A model generated the notes under the pieces. That model searched no databases. It worked only from the letters and a program-made list of their open reading frames with translations, and was not told the origin of the DNA. Positions 5,041 through 13,191 of a stretch of DNA of 64,000 nt are shown piece by piece. The DNA comes from Spirosoma aureum (GTDB taxonomy: Bacteria > Bacteroidota > Bacteroidia > Cytophagales > Spirosomataceae): positions 8,597,001 through 8,661,000 of the forward strand of contig NZ_CP050063.1 of the NCBI RefSeq assembly GCF_011604685.1, written 5' to 3'. Made by a program: the position numbers and the translations under genes. Positions within the stretch are counted from its first letter, which is position 1, and the number at the start of each line of letters is the position of its first letter.

Positions 5041-5101
5041 AAGCCCCTCTCCTTTTCGTATTCTGGATGACTAAATCAGAATACGAAAAGGAGAGGGGCT
5101 T
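5041..5101 (+). terminator. Perfect 25-bp hairpin terminator
   Basis: Bases 5041-5065 are the exact reverse complement of 5077-5101, with an 11-nt loop. The stem begins AAGCCCCTCTCC and the right arm ends in GGGGCTT followed by CATTT. It lies 20 bases after the Hint-protein stop and separates that unit from the thiolase promoter. Confidence 0.85.
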
Positions 5102-5138
5102 CATTTAAAAGAGAGATTTGCATTTTAACCCAAACAAA

Positions 5139-5216: not shown

Positions 5217-6425
5217 ATGGCTGAAGCCTTCATTTATGATGCCGTTCGAACACCTCGTGGGCGAGGCAAGAGCGACGGTTCGCTGCATGATGTGCAGCCT
5301 GTTCAACTCCTCACGAGTGTCCTGCGCGAACTGCGCGACCGCAATCAACTCGATACGTCGCTCGTCGACGATGTTATTATGGGTTGTGTTACCCCCATCG
5401 GTGAGCAAGGTGCCGACATTGCCCGTACTGCCGCCCTTGAAGCCGGATACGATGAGTCAGTAGCGGGGGTTCAGCTCAATAGGTTCTGCTCGTCGGGGCT
5501 GGAGGCTATCAATATGGCCGGAGCTTATGTCATGTCGGGGCAAGTCGATGCTATTGTAGCCGGTGGCGTCGAATCGATGTCACGGGTGCCAATGGGTTCC
5601 GACGGAGGGGCGTTGTTCATGAATCCGCTGATTGTGGCTCGTCATAACATAGTGCCACAAGGCATTTCTGCCGATCTGATAGCTACTAAATACGGTTATT
5701 CGCGTTCAGACGTCGATGCATTTGCGGCTGAGTCATACCGTCGGGCAGTAGAAGCACAGGCTGATAATCGCTTTCATAAGGCACTCGTGCCACTTAAAGA
5801 TGAGATTGGCATCACCGTTCTTGATCGGGATGAAGGCGTTAGGCCCGGCACAACCACCGAGAGTCTGGGTAAACTCAAACCCGCTTTCGAAAGCATGGGC
5901 CAAATTGGTTTAGATAACCTGGCACTACTCAAATATGCCCAATTCGATAAAATCAATCACGTACATCACGCCGGTAATTCATCTCAGATTGTCGATGGAG
6001 CCGCCGGTGTTCTGATTGGTAGCAAAGCCTTTGGCGAACAATCGGGCCTGAAGCCACGCGCTCGCATTAAAGCCTTTGCCGTTGTCGGTTCTGAACCAAC
6101 CATCATGCTCACGGGCCCAATTCCGGCTACCCGTAAAGTGCTTAAACGAGCGGGCATGAGCATCAGTGATATTGATCTGTTCGAAGTCAATGAAGCCTTT
6201 GCGGCTATACCGCTTCTCTTTATGGACGAATTCGCCGTCGATCATAGCCAGTTGAATGTCAACGGTGGCGCCATAGCCTTAGGGCATCCATTGGGCGCAA
6301 CCGGAGCCATTATTTCGGCTACGCTCATTGATGAACTGGAACGCTCCGGCAAACAGTTTGGTCTCTCAACGCTCTGTATTGGGGGCGGCATGGGCATTGC
6401 AACAATTTTCGAACGGGTTAATTAA
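5217..6425 (+). CDS. Acetyl-CoA C-acyltransferase (thiolase)
   Basis: A 402-residue thiolase. The acyl-accepting nucleophile is C91 in [13 protein letters not shown]. The C-terminal [18 protein letters not shown] supplies the catalytic histidine and [11 protein letters not shown] the second catalytic cysteine. It cleaves 3-ketoacyl-CoA to acetyl-CoA in beta-oxidation, or runs the reverse condensation. The downstream FadJ-like enzyme on the same strand supplies the preceding steps and supports a degradative role. Its stop codon overlaps tail to tail with the PIN gene on the other strand. The ATG start follows a recognisable promoter. Confidence 0.93.
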
Positions 6426-6880
6426 GCGATATCGCTAACCGAACGAATGAGTTGGATGCCTTCATCGCGGCAGACGCTTTCGAAATCACCATCGTAACTG
6501 GCAATCCAATCAATGCTACTGAGTTTGCAGGTTGCCAGAATTAGCGCATCATTTGGAAGCAGGTTGTATTTTTCCATGTAGCGCAGATAAAGCGGAATAA
6601 CAGTGTGACCCGGCTCCAGAAAGGTAAATTTTGACAGAAGGTTTATTGGACTATGAGCTGTAACAAGTAGTGGGATAGTGCTGTCACGCTTTAATGTTAC
6701 TGGCGCTTTCTTCCCCTCAATGGCCAGCCAGTAATAAGTAAATTCGCTTAATACGATCTGATTAATACAAAGATTGAACTTAGTAGCTGATGACAAATAG
6801 TTGAATAGCTCAACCTCTGTTTTTTTTGCCCACTCAACCAGAATAGAGCTATCCAAAAAGATGTTATTGTTCATAGGCAT
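6422..6880 (-). CDS. PIN-domain protein, probable VapC-type toxin
   Basis: 152 residues (146 if the second ATG at 6874 is used) with a PIN-like pattern: an N-terminal FLDSSILVEW aspartate, an SEF glutamate, NDALILATC and a C-terminal ASYDGDFESV. These four acidic positions make the metal site of PIN ribonucleases, which in TA systems cut tRNA or rRNA. It overlaps the end of the small upstream gene by 17 bases, as is usual for antitoxin-toxin pairs, and its last bases overlap the thiolase stop. Function is inferred from family and gene pairing. Confidence 0.8.
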   Translation of the reverse strand: MPMNNNIFLDSSILVEWAKKTEVELFNYLSSATKFNLCINQIVLSEFTYYWLAIEGKKAPVTLKRDSTIPLLVTAHSPINLLSKFTFLEPGHTVIPLYLRYMEKYNLLPNDALILATCKLSSIDWIASYDGDFESVCRDEGIQLIRSVSDIA

Positions 6881-7094
6881 TTAAGTCATCCCAATTGAAG
6901 CTGGGATCTGGTGCGGGTAACTTGTCAAAAAAAGCTTGTGCCGCTTCAGCGAGTGTTTGCCCGTGTACTTGCTCCTCACGTACTGGATGAAATTCAATAA
7001 CTAATGCCTGATCACGCATTTCGTCTGGTACGTTAATAATTAATTGACCATTTTCCGGCTTTTGAATGAGTCGAATAGCTCCCATAAACAGCAT
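6864..7094 (-). CDS. Small protein, probable antitoxin of the PIN toxin
   Basis: 76 residues (73 from the ATG at 7085, MGAIRLIQKPENGQ). The N-terminal half looks like a short beta-rich domain (LIINVPDEMRDQALVIEFHP). The acidic, aromatic C-terminus (FFDKLPAPDPSFNWDDLNAYEQ) fits a disordered toxin-binding tail. I do not recognise a named DNA-binding family. The call rests mainly on size and on its overlap with the PIN gene. It would be transcribed from the short divergent region it shares with the FadJ-like gene. Confidence 0.65.
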   Translation of the reverse strand: MLFMGAIRLIQKPENGQLIINVPDEMRDQALVIEFHPVREEQVHGQTLAEAAQAFFDKLPAPDPSFNWDDLNAYEQ

Positions 7095-10557: not shown

Positions 10558-10656
10558 GAAGTAAAGTTACTGAAATATCTGACCATGAATTTCCTGGTGT
10601 CGTGAAATGGTAATTGGTTGGCGTTCGAAGGTAAAACGAACCCGTAGATGCCCCAA

Positions 10657-10664
10657 TACCTTTG
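10657..10664 (+). promoter_or_regulatory. Possible -7 element upstream of the SnoaL-like gene
   Basis: TACCTTTG matches TAnnTTTG. It lies between two candidate start codons (10648 and 10678) and so favours the ATG at 10678. No clear -33 TTG is correctly spaced, and the leader would be very short. Confidence 0.3.
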
Positions 10665-10677
10665 TCAAAAAAACGAC

Positions 10678-11199
10678 ATGAAAACAATCGCCCTAGCACT
10701 AATGATCGCTCTGAGTCATTCCGCAACACCTCAATCAGCCACTGAAAATCCAACAAAATCCGATCGTCAGATGACCACAAACCAATCAAACAAAAAAACT
10801 ATGGAAACGCAATCAATGCAGGTAGTCAGTGATTTTTTAATCGCCGTTCAGCAGGGAAATCAGGCAAAACTGGCGTCATCTTTACACCCGGATATCGAAT
10901 GGAGTCAGCCCGGCAACAACCGCTTCTCCGGCACAAAAAAATCGAGTGCAGAGGTTTTTAAGATGGTAGGCGGCATGTTTGACGTATCATCCAACACACT
11001 GGCCTTGACTGATGTGAAGGTTCTTACGGCCAACGGAAATAGCGTTGCCTGCCTGGTACACTGGAAAGCAGTTCAGCCTAACGGCGGCATACTCGATGTC
11101 GACAACATCGACGTCTACACGGTTGAAAATGGCCAGATTACCAAGGCTAAAGTATACTCTGCCGATGTAGCGCACGAAGATGAATTCTGGCTCAAGTAA
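10678..11199 (+). CDS. Secreted SnoaL-like / NTF2-fold protein
   Basis: From ATG 10678 the product has 173 residues and begins with a signal-like MKTIALALMIALSHSATPQS, then a polar linker. A cone-shaped NTF2/SnoaL domain follows: MQVVSDFLIAVQQGNQAKLA, HPDIEWSQPG, VDNIDVYTVENGQITKAKVY. These features match polyketide-cyclase-like or ketosteroid-isomerase-like proteins of unknown substrate. A second in-frame ATG at 10801 (METQSMQVV) would give a cytosolic form without the signal. The gene is divergent from the AraC regulator and ends before a clear terminator. Confidence 0.75.
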   Translation: MKTIALALMIALSHSATPQSATENPTKSDRQMTTNQSNKKTMETQSMQVVSDFLIAVQQGNQAKLASSLHPDIEWSQPGNNRFSGTKKSSAEVFKMVGGMFDVSSNTLALTDVKVLTANGNSVACLVHWKAVQPNGGILDVDNIDVYTVENGQITKAKVYSADVAHEDEFWLK

Positions 11200-11220
11200 A
11201 CCGACATAAAGGCATAGAAG

Positions 11221-11255
11221 AACAAGACCACTGCGATATGAGCGGTGGTTTTGTT
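11221..11255 (+). terminator. Terminator after the SnoaL-like gene
   Basis: AACAAGACCACTGC pairs with GCGGTGGTTTTGTT around GATATGA, with two G-U-compatible positions and a T-rich 3' side. It directly touches the ancestral-looking copy of the rnhB tail (11255-11293). This suggests it once served as the shared terminator between convergent SnoaL and rnhB genes. Confidence 0.7.
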
Positions 11256-11293
11256 TATAAAAGCCGAAAGCTCATGCGGTGGTACTTCGTTGG
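11255..11293 (-). repeat. Second copy of the last 12 codons and stop of rnhB
   Basis: These 39 bases match 12616-12654 in the same orientation at 38 of 39 positions. The one difference (C at 11285, T at 12646) is synonymous: the minus strand still reads TKYHRMSFRLL-stop. No rnhB sequence continues beyond it. It is a detached gene end, 1361 bp from the functional one, with the AAA ATPase gene in between. Confidence 0.9.
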
Positions 11294-11367
11294 AACACTT
11301 CCTTTTATTTTGTTTTTAAAGGCTATTTCTCAAACATATATCTGTCGACAAAGCAAATAATGGCTAA

Positions 11368-11412
11368 AAAGTATTACTTTGTGCATAGAATAATAACACA
11401 AAGTAATACTTT
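11368..11412 (+). promoter_or_regulatory. 16-bp inverted repeat immediately upstream of the AAA ATPase
   Basis: AAAGTATTACTTTGTG (11368-11383) and CACAAAGTAATACTTT (11397-11412) are exact reverse complements 13 bases apart. The right arm ends on the base before the ATG at 11413. The left arm holds TTACTTTG, near the -7 consensus. It could be an operator or a leader hairpin occluding the ribosome site, giving autoregulation. Confidence 0.6.
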
Positions 11413-12600
11413 ATGATCTATAGACAATTATATCAAGATCTCGAAGATCATTTATCAAAGAAACAAGCTACTGTTATCACAGGGATGCGCCGAGTTGGTA
11501 AGACAACGGCTGTACGTCATCTCTTGGCACAGGTTCCTCATACGAACAAACTATTTCTGGATCTGGAAAAAGCAGAAAACCGATATTTGCTAAATCAACC
11601 CATGTATCGTGATGTTGAGCTGGACTTGCAGGTTCAGGGTGTGGATCTGACAAAACCTGCCGTTATAGCGATTGACGAAATTCAACTGGTCAGAAACGCC
11701 CCCAGCGTTATTAAATACCTATATGACACCTACACTATCAAATTTTTACTGACAGGGTCCAGTTCATACTACCTGAAGAATCACTTCTCAGAAAGCCTGG
11801 CTGGACGAAAGCGAATCTTCGAGATGTTTCCCCTCAATTTTGCTGAATTTGTTGCCTTCCGGGGAATAGATACAAAAACGCTAAAACCATTTATCCGGCA
11901 CTCATACCAGCAAAGCTACTACCTGAAATACAAAGAGTTATACGAAGAATTTCTTCGATATGGTGGTTTCCCCGAGGTTGCACTGGCTGATACAGATTCG
12001 GACAAAGCTAGCTACCTGAGCGACATTATTAATGCCTATATTGAGTTAGACATTCGCCTGTTATCTGATTTTTCGGCCAGCGATGACCTGGTAAGGCTTG
12101 TAAGATTGATAGCAGCCCATACGGGCAGTAAAATAGACTACCAAAAGTTAGGGAGCTTATTGGGTATTAATCGAAATAAAATTAAAGACTATCTGACACT
12201 ACTTGAGTATACATATTTCATCCAAAGTGTACCGGCCTTTAGCCGAAATACTGGTCGTGAGATTTCTCAACAACGCAAACTGTATCTTGCCGATACGGGT
12301 CTGCTAAATCAACTGGCCCACCTGAATAGTGGTCAGGTTTTTGAGAATGCCATTGCCAATCAATTACGCTGGTTAGGGCAGGTACAATTCTATCAACGTA
12401 AAACAGGCCAGGAAATCGATTTTATTCTGAATGGACAGTTTGCTGTTGAAGTAAAAGAGACACCAACATTGAGTGATCGATCAACCTTGCAAAAAAGAGC
12501 AGCTAGCATTGGCCTAACCGACCTGATGCTAATTGGCCGCCATCCGGCACCCAGCGATTTTAGAAACTTTATCTGGGGTGGCAATCTACTACCAGACTGA
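11413..12600 (+). CDS. AAA ATPase with C-terminal DUF4143 domain
   Basis: 395 residues. The AAA domain has Walker A TGMRRVGKTT (residues 23-32) and Walker B AVIAIDEIQ with D88-E89, then a LTGSSSYYL sensor segment. The C-terminal third is the DUF4143 domain, ending QRKTGQEIDFILNGQFAVEVKE, which resembles a PD-(D/E)XK nuclease core (E..D...EVK). This family is common, sporadic and of unknown function; roles in defence or as mobile cargo have been proposed. The gene is visibly more AT-rich than its neighbours and is bracketed by the two rnhB-tail copies, so it was probably acquired as a single-gene insert. Confidence 0.88.
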   Translation: MIYRQLYQDLEDHLSKKQATVITGMRRVGKTTAVRHLLAQVPHTNKLFLDLEKAENRYLLNQPMYRDVELDLQVQGVDLTKPAVIAIDEIQLVRNAPSVIKYLYDTYTIKFLLTGSSSYYLKNHFSESLAGRKRIFEMFPLNFAEFVAFRGIDTKTLKPFIRHSYQQSYYLKYKELYEEFLRYGGFPEVALADTDSDKASYLSDIINAYIELDIRLLSDFSASDDLVRLVRLIAAHTGSKIDYQKLGSLLGINRNKIKDYLTLLEYTYFIQSVPAFSRNTGREISQQRKLYLADTGLLNQLAHLNSGQVFENAIANQLRWLGQVQFYQRKTGQEIDFILNGQFAVEVKETPTLSDRSTLQKRAASIGLTDLMLIGRHPAPSDFRNFIWGGNLLPD

Positions 12601-12615
12601 AACGACAAGCCAAAC

Positions 12616-12654
12616 TTATAAAAGCCGAAAGCTCATGCGGTGGTATTTCGTTGG
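12616..12654 (-). repeat. rnhB tail, copy within the intact gene
   Basis: This is the partner of the 39-bp repeat at 11255-11293; here it forms the functional end of rnhB. The two copies define a 1361-bp unit containing the AAA/DUF4143 gene. Confidence 0.9.
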
Positions 12655-13191
12655 CCCGAACTTCCGGATAGCCTCCCGATGAACAGGCGTTGGATAACCT
12701 ACATTCCTGGCCCATCCATAAGCAGGAAACTCCAGTCCAAGTTGCTCCATCAAATCGTCTCGGTAGGTTTTGGCCAGCACTGAAGCAGCTGCAATCGACA
12801 GAAAATGAGCATCGCCCTTTATAATGCACGTGTGCGAAATCATCGGATACGGTACAAAGCGATTGCCATCAACCAATAAATGCTCCGGTTGAATCACAAG
12901 CGCATCGACGGCACGATGCATGGCCAGAAAACTCGCTTTCAAAATATTAATCCGATCAATATCCTCGTGCGAAACTTCGGCCACTGCCCACGCCAGCGCA
13001 TCGCGTTTTATGTCGGTGCGGAGTGTTTCCCGTTGCGTGCGGGTCAGTTGTTTAGAGTCGTTCAGAATCGGATGCGTATAGTCTTTGGGTAAGATCACCG
13101 CAGCAGCTACTACCGGACCAGCCAAACAGCCGCGCCCAACTTCATCCAACCCAGCTTCGATTGCGTCAGCATTATAATACGATTTAAGCAT
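12616..13191 (-). CDS. rnhB: Ribonuclease HII
   Basis: 191 residues, the usual length. It begins with AIEAGLDEVGRGCLAGPV, where D16 and E17 are metal ligands; D108 in LLVDGN and D127 in KGDAHFLSIAAASVLAKT complete the acidic active site. It removes ribonucleotides and primers from RNA-DNA hybrids in the cytoplasm. It lies 60 bases after the Bat operon on the same strand and may be co-transcribed. Its 3' end is the junction with the inserted ATPase cassette and appears to have been restored without changing the protein. Confidence 0.95.
   Translation of the reverse strand: MLKSYYNADAIEAGLDEVGRGCLAGPVVAAAVILPKDYTHPILNDSKQLTRTQRETLRTDIKRDALAWAVAEVSHEDIDRINILKASFLAMHRAVDALVIQPEHLLVDGNRFVPYPMISHTCIIKGDAHFLSIAAASVLAKTYRDDLMEQLGLEFPAYGWARNVGYPTPVHREAIRKFGPTKYHRMSFRLL

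Follow-up and report, generated by a model that had tools for sequence, protein, structure and literature searches.

A candidate phage-defence gene between two copies of the rnhB end in Spirosoma aureum, and similar footprints around other small units

In a 64,000-nucleotide stretch of the Spirosoma aureum genome (the window), the end of the ribonuclease HII gene rnhB is present twice, and a single ATPase gene lies between the two copies. How could one gene arrive at such a place, leaving the gene it joined intact and a piece of that gene behind? The rnhB gene (12616-13191, minus strand) is an intact frame of 191 aa with a match to RNase_HII (PF01351, E 2.4e-40), and its last 12 codons and stop make up the proximal 39-nt copy of the repeat (12616-12654, minus strand). 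The distal copy (11255-11293, minus strand) is an orphan rnhB tail that matches the proximal one at 38 of 39 positions, in direct orientation and at a spacing of 1361 bp; the single difference (AAA/AAG) is synonymous. The repeat exceeds chance, and a search of both strands of the window that tolerated up to 13 mismatches found no third copy. The orphan tail adjoins a hairpin (11220-11256; -22.8 kcal/mol, z -8.3), next to which lies a SnoaL-like gene (10648-11199, plus strand; PF12680, E 5.1e-10), the convergent neighbour of rnhB in relatives by synteny.

The insert and the empty site

The segment between the two copies (11294-12615) has a G+C content of 41%, with 26% in its leader, compared with 48% for the window. 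Its sole frame of at least 100 aa encodes an AAA_14/DUF4143 ATPase of 395 aa (11413-12600, plus strand; AAA_14 E 1.5e-29, DUF4143 E 2.8e-28), and neither the list of open reading frames nor Pfam gave a transposase match in the insert. The residues G29, K30, D88, E89, D336, E346 and K348 are invariant in 51 relatives and belong to what we take to be the AAA+ ATPase and PD-(D/E)XK-type motifs. The PADLOC profile PDC-S01 matched residues 1-342 of the 395 (E 3.4e-68), and the inserted ATPase thus resembles, by sequence, a bacterial virus-defence gene, PDC-S01 being listed as a phage-defence candidate of PADLOC in the accessible parts of two papers (PMC12988326, PMC13356809). The former describes PDC-S01, in the text available, as a fusion of an ATPase with a PD-(D/E)XK member and ranks it fourth in frequency among the defence systems of prokaryotes (PMC12988326). 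A structure model of the window protein (mean pLDDT 91) had Cdc6/Orc1 and Apaf-1 structures at the head of the matches listed by Foldseek; because no stand-alone nuclease was among the 50 matches listed, the nuclease fold of the ATPase is unconfirmed. The only solved structure found as a relative by sequence was 2fna.

Abutting the start codon of the ATPase gene is a palindromic leader (11368-11412, plus strand), a perfect inverted repeat with 16-bp arms (11368-11383 and 11397-11412) and a 13-nt loop, which is likely operator-like and perhaps autoregulatory. An inverted repeat upstream of the DUF4143 gene beat all 20 shuffles in 50 of 89 loci. Among relatives the start-codon palindromes vary in sequence, with size and place often kept; this variation suggests a DNA-binding specificity that may change together with the ATPase protein. 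The coordinates, base composition and Pfam matches all agree with the first-pass annotation of this DNA, which had described a single AT-rich AAA/DUF4143 gene with a palindromic leader, bracketed by a 38/39 direct repeat of the rnhB end.

That annotation had also proposed an insertion at the rnhB end, with the distal copy as the original end of the gene, and a comparison of the junction across Spirosoma bears out both points. We found rnhB in 34 of 36 genomes of the genus and read about 15 kb beyond it in the downstream direction at 32 of these loci (all except those of G025 and G028). In genome G004 the segment between the copies is missing and there is one tail copy only: the rnhB stop runs straight into a hairpin (-18.9 kcal/mol, z -3.5) next to SnoaL, as the orphan tail does in the window. 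The flanks of the window, once joined, were identical to G004 at 1138 of 1230 positions, and the neighbouring SnoaL, AraC and FadJ-like genes (FadJ named from sequence) were 95-96% identical to those of the window. G004 therefore represents the empty site, and since its rnhB end lies directly at the hairpin and SnoaL, the distal copy marks the original rnhB end, while the proximal copy keeps rnhB whole. SnoaL lies within about 125 nt of rnhB in 8 of the 32 loci.

A second rnhB tail (at least 66% identity) was present in 3 of the 32 loci, namely the window itself (G000), G006 and G017. Instead of an ATPase, the insert in G006 and G017 is a two-gene RelBE-like toxin-antitoxin unit of about 0.7 kb, consisting of a RelE-family toxin (PF06296, E 1.6e-6) and an upstream frame of 69-72 aa, for which Pfam gave no match in G017. 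The pattern is thus not peculiar to DUF4143 genes, since RelBE pairs use the same rnhB end. In alignment columns, the repeats measured 39 in G000, 70 in G017 and 107 in G006 (15 of them a gap in the G006 orphan), and all three end at the rnhB stop or at most two bases from it. The rnhB tail of G006 is not the same as that of G017, and each orphan matches its own rnhB, so that the events were either recent and separate or have been continually homogenised.

An ATPase at this junction without a duplication, which the first-pass annotation had named as evidence against its own reading, was found in G021 (82% identical, no orphan tail). This case fits an older or differently formed insertion and shows that duplication is not obligatory. 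In G007 an ATPase (79%) lies between AraC and FadJ, and the rnhB-SnoaL junction is uninterrupted. A palindromic intergenic REP-like repeat (GGCGCGAGTATTCACTCG-like) recurs in Spirosoma genomes, for example at 5062-5123 and 6408-6469 of locus L067 and behind rnhB in L069, and the G007 ATPase sits between two such elements.

Flanking repeats around related genes and other cargo

We searched 681,139 bases, made up of the window and 39 loci picked for their rnhB or ATPase gene, for direct repeats with E<=1e-4, at least 80% identity and a spacing of 250-6000 nt. Of the six that were found, five flank either a DUF4143 gene or a toxin-antitoxin pair, and the sixth (L081) flanks neither. Flanking duplications were then sought at other DUF4143 genes, a check that the first-pass annotation had suggested, in 9 genus loci and the best 80 of 167 named loci (89 in all, 86 with usable flanks). 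A direct repeat shared by the left and right 1.2-kb flanks (E<=1e-3) was present in 23 of the 86 loci compared with 1 of 340 mismatched pairs; among these 23, L116, L120, L145 and the long L134 match look like two-copy neighbouring gene families, and the repeats of L148 and L154 are short (22-25 nt). A further 35 family-level DUF4143 loci, with a partial match in G433 set aside, comprised 14 that were the same as named loci, one without a left flank and 20 that were tested; in the 1.2-kb flanks of these 20, no repeat was found (mismatched pairs 0/153). Repeats that tightly bracket the gene occurred at 13 of 84 DUF4143 loci compared with 6 of 345 other genes of the same loci. With all loci pooled, the count was 13/104 versus 6/345 (Fisher 2e-5), and 10/104 (p 7e-4) without three doubtful cases, L113 (operator-like palindrome), L098 (intergenic repeat of 76% identity) and L134 (unexplained).

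The repeats in the tight set are 34-167 nt long. They cover the end of a prolyl oligopeptidase gene twice (G011, 75 nt; G014, 115 nt; ATPase cargo in both), the ends of a methyltransferase gene (L180, 167 nt) and a 2-phosphosulpholactate phosphatase gene (L109, 34 nt), and the start of the D-Tyr-tRNA deacylase gene dtd (L170, 95 nt); the remaining DUF4143 flanking repeats include intergenic DNA. In L113 and L144 the flanking repeats hold an operator-like palindrome on either side of the ATPase, an arrangement that may differ from duplicated targets.

RelE-type genes gave a similar picture. From at least 50 matches, 30 loci were tested, and flanking repeats were present in 8 of them (one, L201, weak) compared with 1 of 232 mismatched pairs; setting aside the rnhB loci of G006 and G017, which had prompted the search, leaves 6/28. 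These repeats are 44-176 nt long and include the start of dnaE in G023 (the gene being named from sequence), two gene ends, one of a carbon-nitrogen hydrolase gene in G009 and one of a ClpB-type gene in G006, and also intergenic DNA. The dnaE start is the second favoured place (G023, G020 and G008), and the insert there in G020 carries a PIN-domain gene (E 9e-26). In G008 (L272) three copies of the dnaE start (621-669, 2177-2344 and 6872-7039; 86-95% alike) are separated by two different inserts, the larger with a PDC-M16A-type helicase, a reverse transcriptase and a WYL-domain gene, the smaller with two frames that have no Pfam match; judged by sequence, this is a stack of insertions at one gene start. 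In G012 (L274) a RelBE unit and an AbiEii-type gene are stacked directly upstream of dnaE, where a direct repeat was sought and none was found, and AbiEii matches adjoin dnaE in several Spirosoma genomes. Repeats around AbiEii loci (3 of 29 tested versus 4 of 224 control pairs, p 0.03) are weak at best as a pattern, because in each of the three loci over 900 nt separate the end of the left copy from the match.

Among control genes, AraC-type loci showed repeats in 0 of 17 testable cases (30 loci taken), and rnhB, taken as the bracketed gene, in 1 of 32 (E 0.001). The low rates among mismatched pairs and among other genes of the DUF4143 loci rule out chance repeats as an explanation. Altogether, the cargo found within the footprint consists of AAA_14/DUF4143 and RelE-type genes, a PIN-domain gene and a helicase with reverse transcriptase; it includes no restriction-modification gene.

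Allele-like copies and a proposed route of arrival

If the unit had simply duplicated its target, the working copy would afterwards gain synonymous changes and the orphan unbiased ones; with a random synonymous fraction of 0.31 for the observed changes, a synonymous fraction of 0.47 is then expected. Across 14 coding repeats, 70 of 100 differences were synonymous and 30 were not, compared with about 47 synonymous differences expected (binomial p 3e-6). None of 200,000 rounds of a stratified simulation reached 70, and with any single case dropped the value was at most 0.0003. The seven ATPase cases alone gave 36/47 (p 1e-5). All nine differences in the 168-nt copy of the G008 dnaE start are synonymous, and both copies match G020 at 155 of 168 positions; in L180 the figure is 13/16. 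Near or below expectation were the G020 dnaE start (11/21), ClpB (5/9), DUF1016 in L157 (1/4) and G017 rnhB (0/1). The excess implies that several copies diverged as working genes, and they look like alleles of two strains. The window locus contributes one difference only, a synonymous one, and the allele argument rests on the other loci. In alignments, the orphans of the prolyl oligopeptidase gene and dnaE were no closer than the functional copies to any one relative, and no clear recombination breakpoint was seen in rnhB (G000 versus G004) or in dnaE.

We lean towards an insertion with a long, variable target duplication, in which the gene arrived beside the gene end of another strain through homology-anchored recombination; we hold this to be somewhat better than an even proposition. 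The unit would be a compact single gene, a promoter/operator with a PDC-S01-type AAA+ ATPase, already present in donor-strain DNA beside the donor's version of the target gene. Homologous recombination within the gene common to both strains would bring in the unit together with the foreign gene end, keeping the gene whole and leaving the recipient's own end as an orphan. The second joint might form inside the recipient gene by one-sided, homology-facilitated joining, or a small circle of unit and gene end might integrate; an integrase would not be needed on either route. The empty site in G004, the duplicated tails at 3 of 32 rnhB loci with two kinds of cargo, the flanking repeats around DUF4143 and RelE-type genes and the synonymous excess speak for this explanation. 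The repeats of 39, 70 and 107 columns at rnhB, together with those at gene starts and in intergenic DNA elsewhere, argue that there is no fixed attachment site. Of the earlier proposal of homologous or gene-end-replacing recombination through a coding-sequence end, the recombination route is thus retained, in line with the synonymous differences at other loci, and the defined attachment site is given up: the repeats differ in length at one and the same gene, which rules out a fixed site, and other targets are gene starts (dtd, dnaE) or intergenic.

Several findings count against the favoured explanation. The copies of the window locus differ at a single site, and no donor emerged from the prolyl oligopeptidase and dnaE alignments. 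Most units reach no further than about 80-140 nt upstream of the start and 3-100 nt past the stop, and random donor fragments would not give such borders; this tight trimming is the least explained fact, and a small circle would account for it better than one-sided joining. G021 lacks a duplication, the 20 further family-level loci lack repeats, and the AbiEii pattern is weak at best.

The rival that survives best is plain target duplication, which we regard as unlikely but serious: the unit would have been joined into a staggered break or copied in by template switching, duplicating some tens to about 180 nt, and later differences would have built up as the orphan decayed neutrally, perhaps with a shuffling of alleles as well. 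It accords well with variable repeat lengths, tight unit borders and the near-identity of the copies at G000 (38/39) and G017 (69/70, the one difference changing an amino acid). The 70 synonymous differences per 100, the nine of nine at G008 dnaE and the 13 of 16 in L180 weigh against it, although a plain duplication at the outset, followed by shuffling among strains, would produce such an excess as well.

A site-specific integrase acting in trans on gene ends as attachment sites, as for many islands that restore gene ends, is considered improbable. It would explain the restored ends and the repeated use of rnhB (three times), the prolyl oligopeptidase gene (twice) and the dnaE start (G023, G020 and G008). 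Yet Pfam matched no integrase in the inserts that were searched, where several small frames have no match, the repeat length varies at one gene, and the targets include gene starts and intergenic DNA. Homing-like mobility of the ATPase itself, with a PD-(D/E)XK-like part cutting the target and repair copying the unit in, likewise has very little probability. The invariance of D336, E346 and K348 and the description of PDC-S01 as a fusion with a PD-(D/E)XK member, in the available part of PMC12988326, are in its favour, but RelBE and PIN inserts without the ATPase show the same footprint, and no motif common to the targets was noticed, no motif search having been made. A coincidence of an ordinary insertion and a local duplication of the rnhB end could account for a single locus, and for G021 without duplication, but is hardly credible given the recurrence across loci and cargo and the low control rates. 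A transposon or insertion sequence does not fit the missing transposase match in the insert or the long, variable repeats.

The similar footprint around some ATPase relatives and around toxin-antitoxin pairs suggests that such genes need not encode a mobility enzyme and can spread by way of ordinary gene ends. One may go further and see Bacteroidota defence and toxin-antitoxin genes as a class of 'gene-end-armed' cassettes, each a self-contained unit with a copy of a core-gene end, spread between strains by host homologous recombination alone (possibly by way of a small circle formed by crossover between the repeats), restoring the gene entered and able to stack at preferred genes, rnhB and dnaE among them; we offer this generalisation as a tentative one, with the balance clearly against it. 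In the present insert, PDC-S01 travels without a visible mobile element. If homology at gene ends does move PDC-S01 and small toxin-antitoxin pairs, this would help to explain the turnover of stand-alone defence genes without integrases, and recent arrivals and their donors could be found by a simple footprint, a whole gene with an orphaned gene end next to it.

Relation to known insertion systems

Islands that enter gene ends by tyrosine recombinases duplicate the gene end and restore the gene. The loci described here share these two features but differ in that no integrase is seen and the repeat has no fixed core, and an integrase-driven gene-end island does not suit a single-gene insert without an integrase, with repeats of unequal length at one gene.

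For the arrays of type VI secretion (T6SS) effector-immunity modules in Vibrio cholerae, homology-facilitated illegitimate recombination has been proposed (PMC5361080). As far as the accessible text of that paper goes, the likeness is that a shared stretch anchors the event, a module is added, the older part is left as an orphan and rounds can stack, as at the G008 dnaE start. Our loci, by contrast, have an unrelated core gene as anchor and, as module, a single gene or operon that stands by itself. The available parts of the papers on PDC-S01 (PMC12988326, PMC13356809) do not mention its mode of insertion, and a narrow literature search for the footprint outside the restriction-modification pattern returned nothing relevant, by which its absence from the literature is not shown.

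The closest parallel lies in restriction-modification genes. If the explanation favoured here is right, the 'long target duplication' pattern known from these genes since 2000 becomes testable. Insertion with long target duplication is said to have been described for restriction-modification genes of Helicobacter pylori by Nobusato et al. in 2000. In the accessible parts of later accounts, restriction-modification units are inserted with long, variable target duplications, on the order of 100 bp, recognised by comparison of related genomes (PMC1643837, PMC3031569, PMC3874152). So far as these texts allow a comparison, our loci likewise show a single unit of a selfish type, variable long repeats, and both occupied and empty sites. 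They differ in cargo, which is PDC-S01 and RelBE, and in host, the genomes being mostly Bacteroidota; moreover, the end of a core gene is restored here, one such end has been hit by different cargo, and the copies at several loci look allelic. Because the footprint is shared and the cargo is wider, we class the present cases as a variant of insertion with long target duplication. The footprint itself is known from restriction-modification genes; new are its carriers, PDC-S01 and RelBE, the reuse of one site and the allele evidence.
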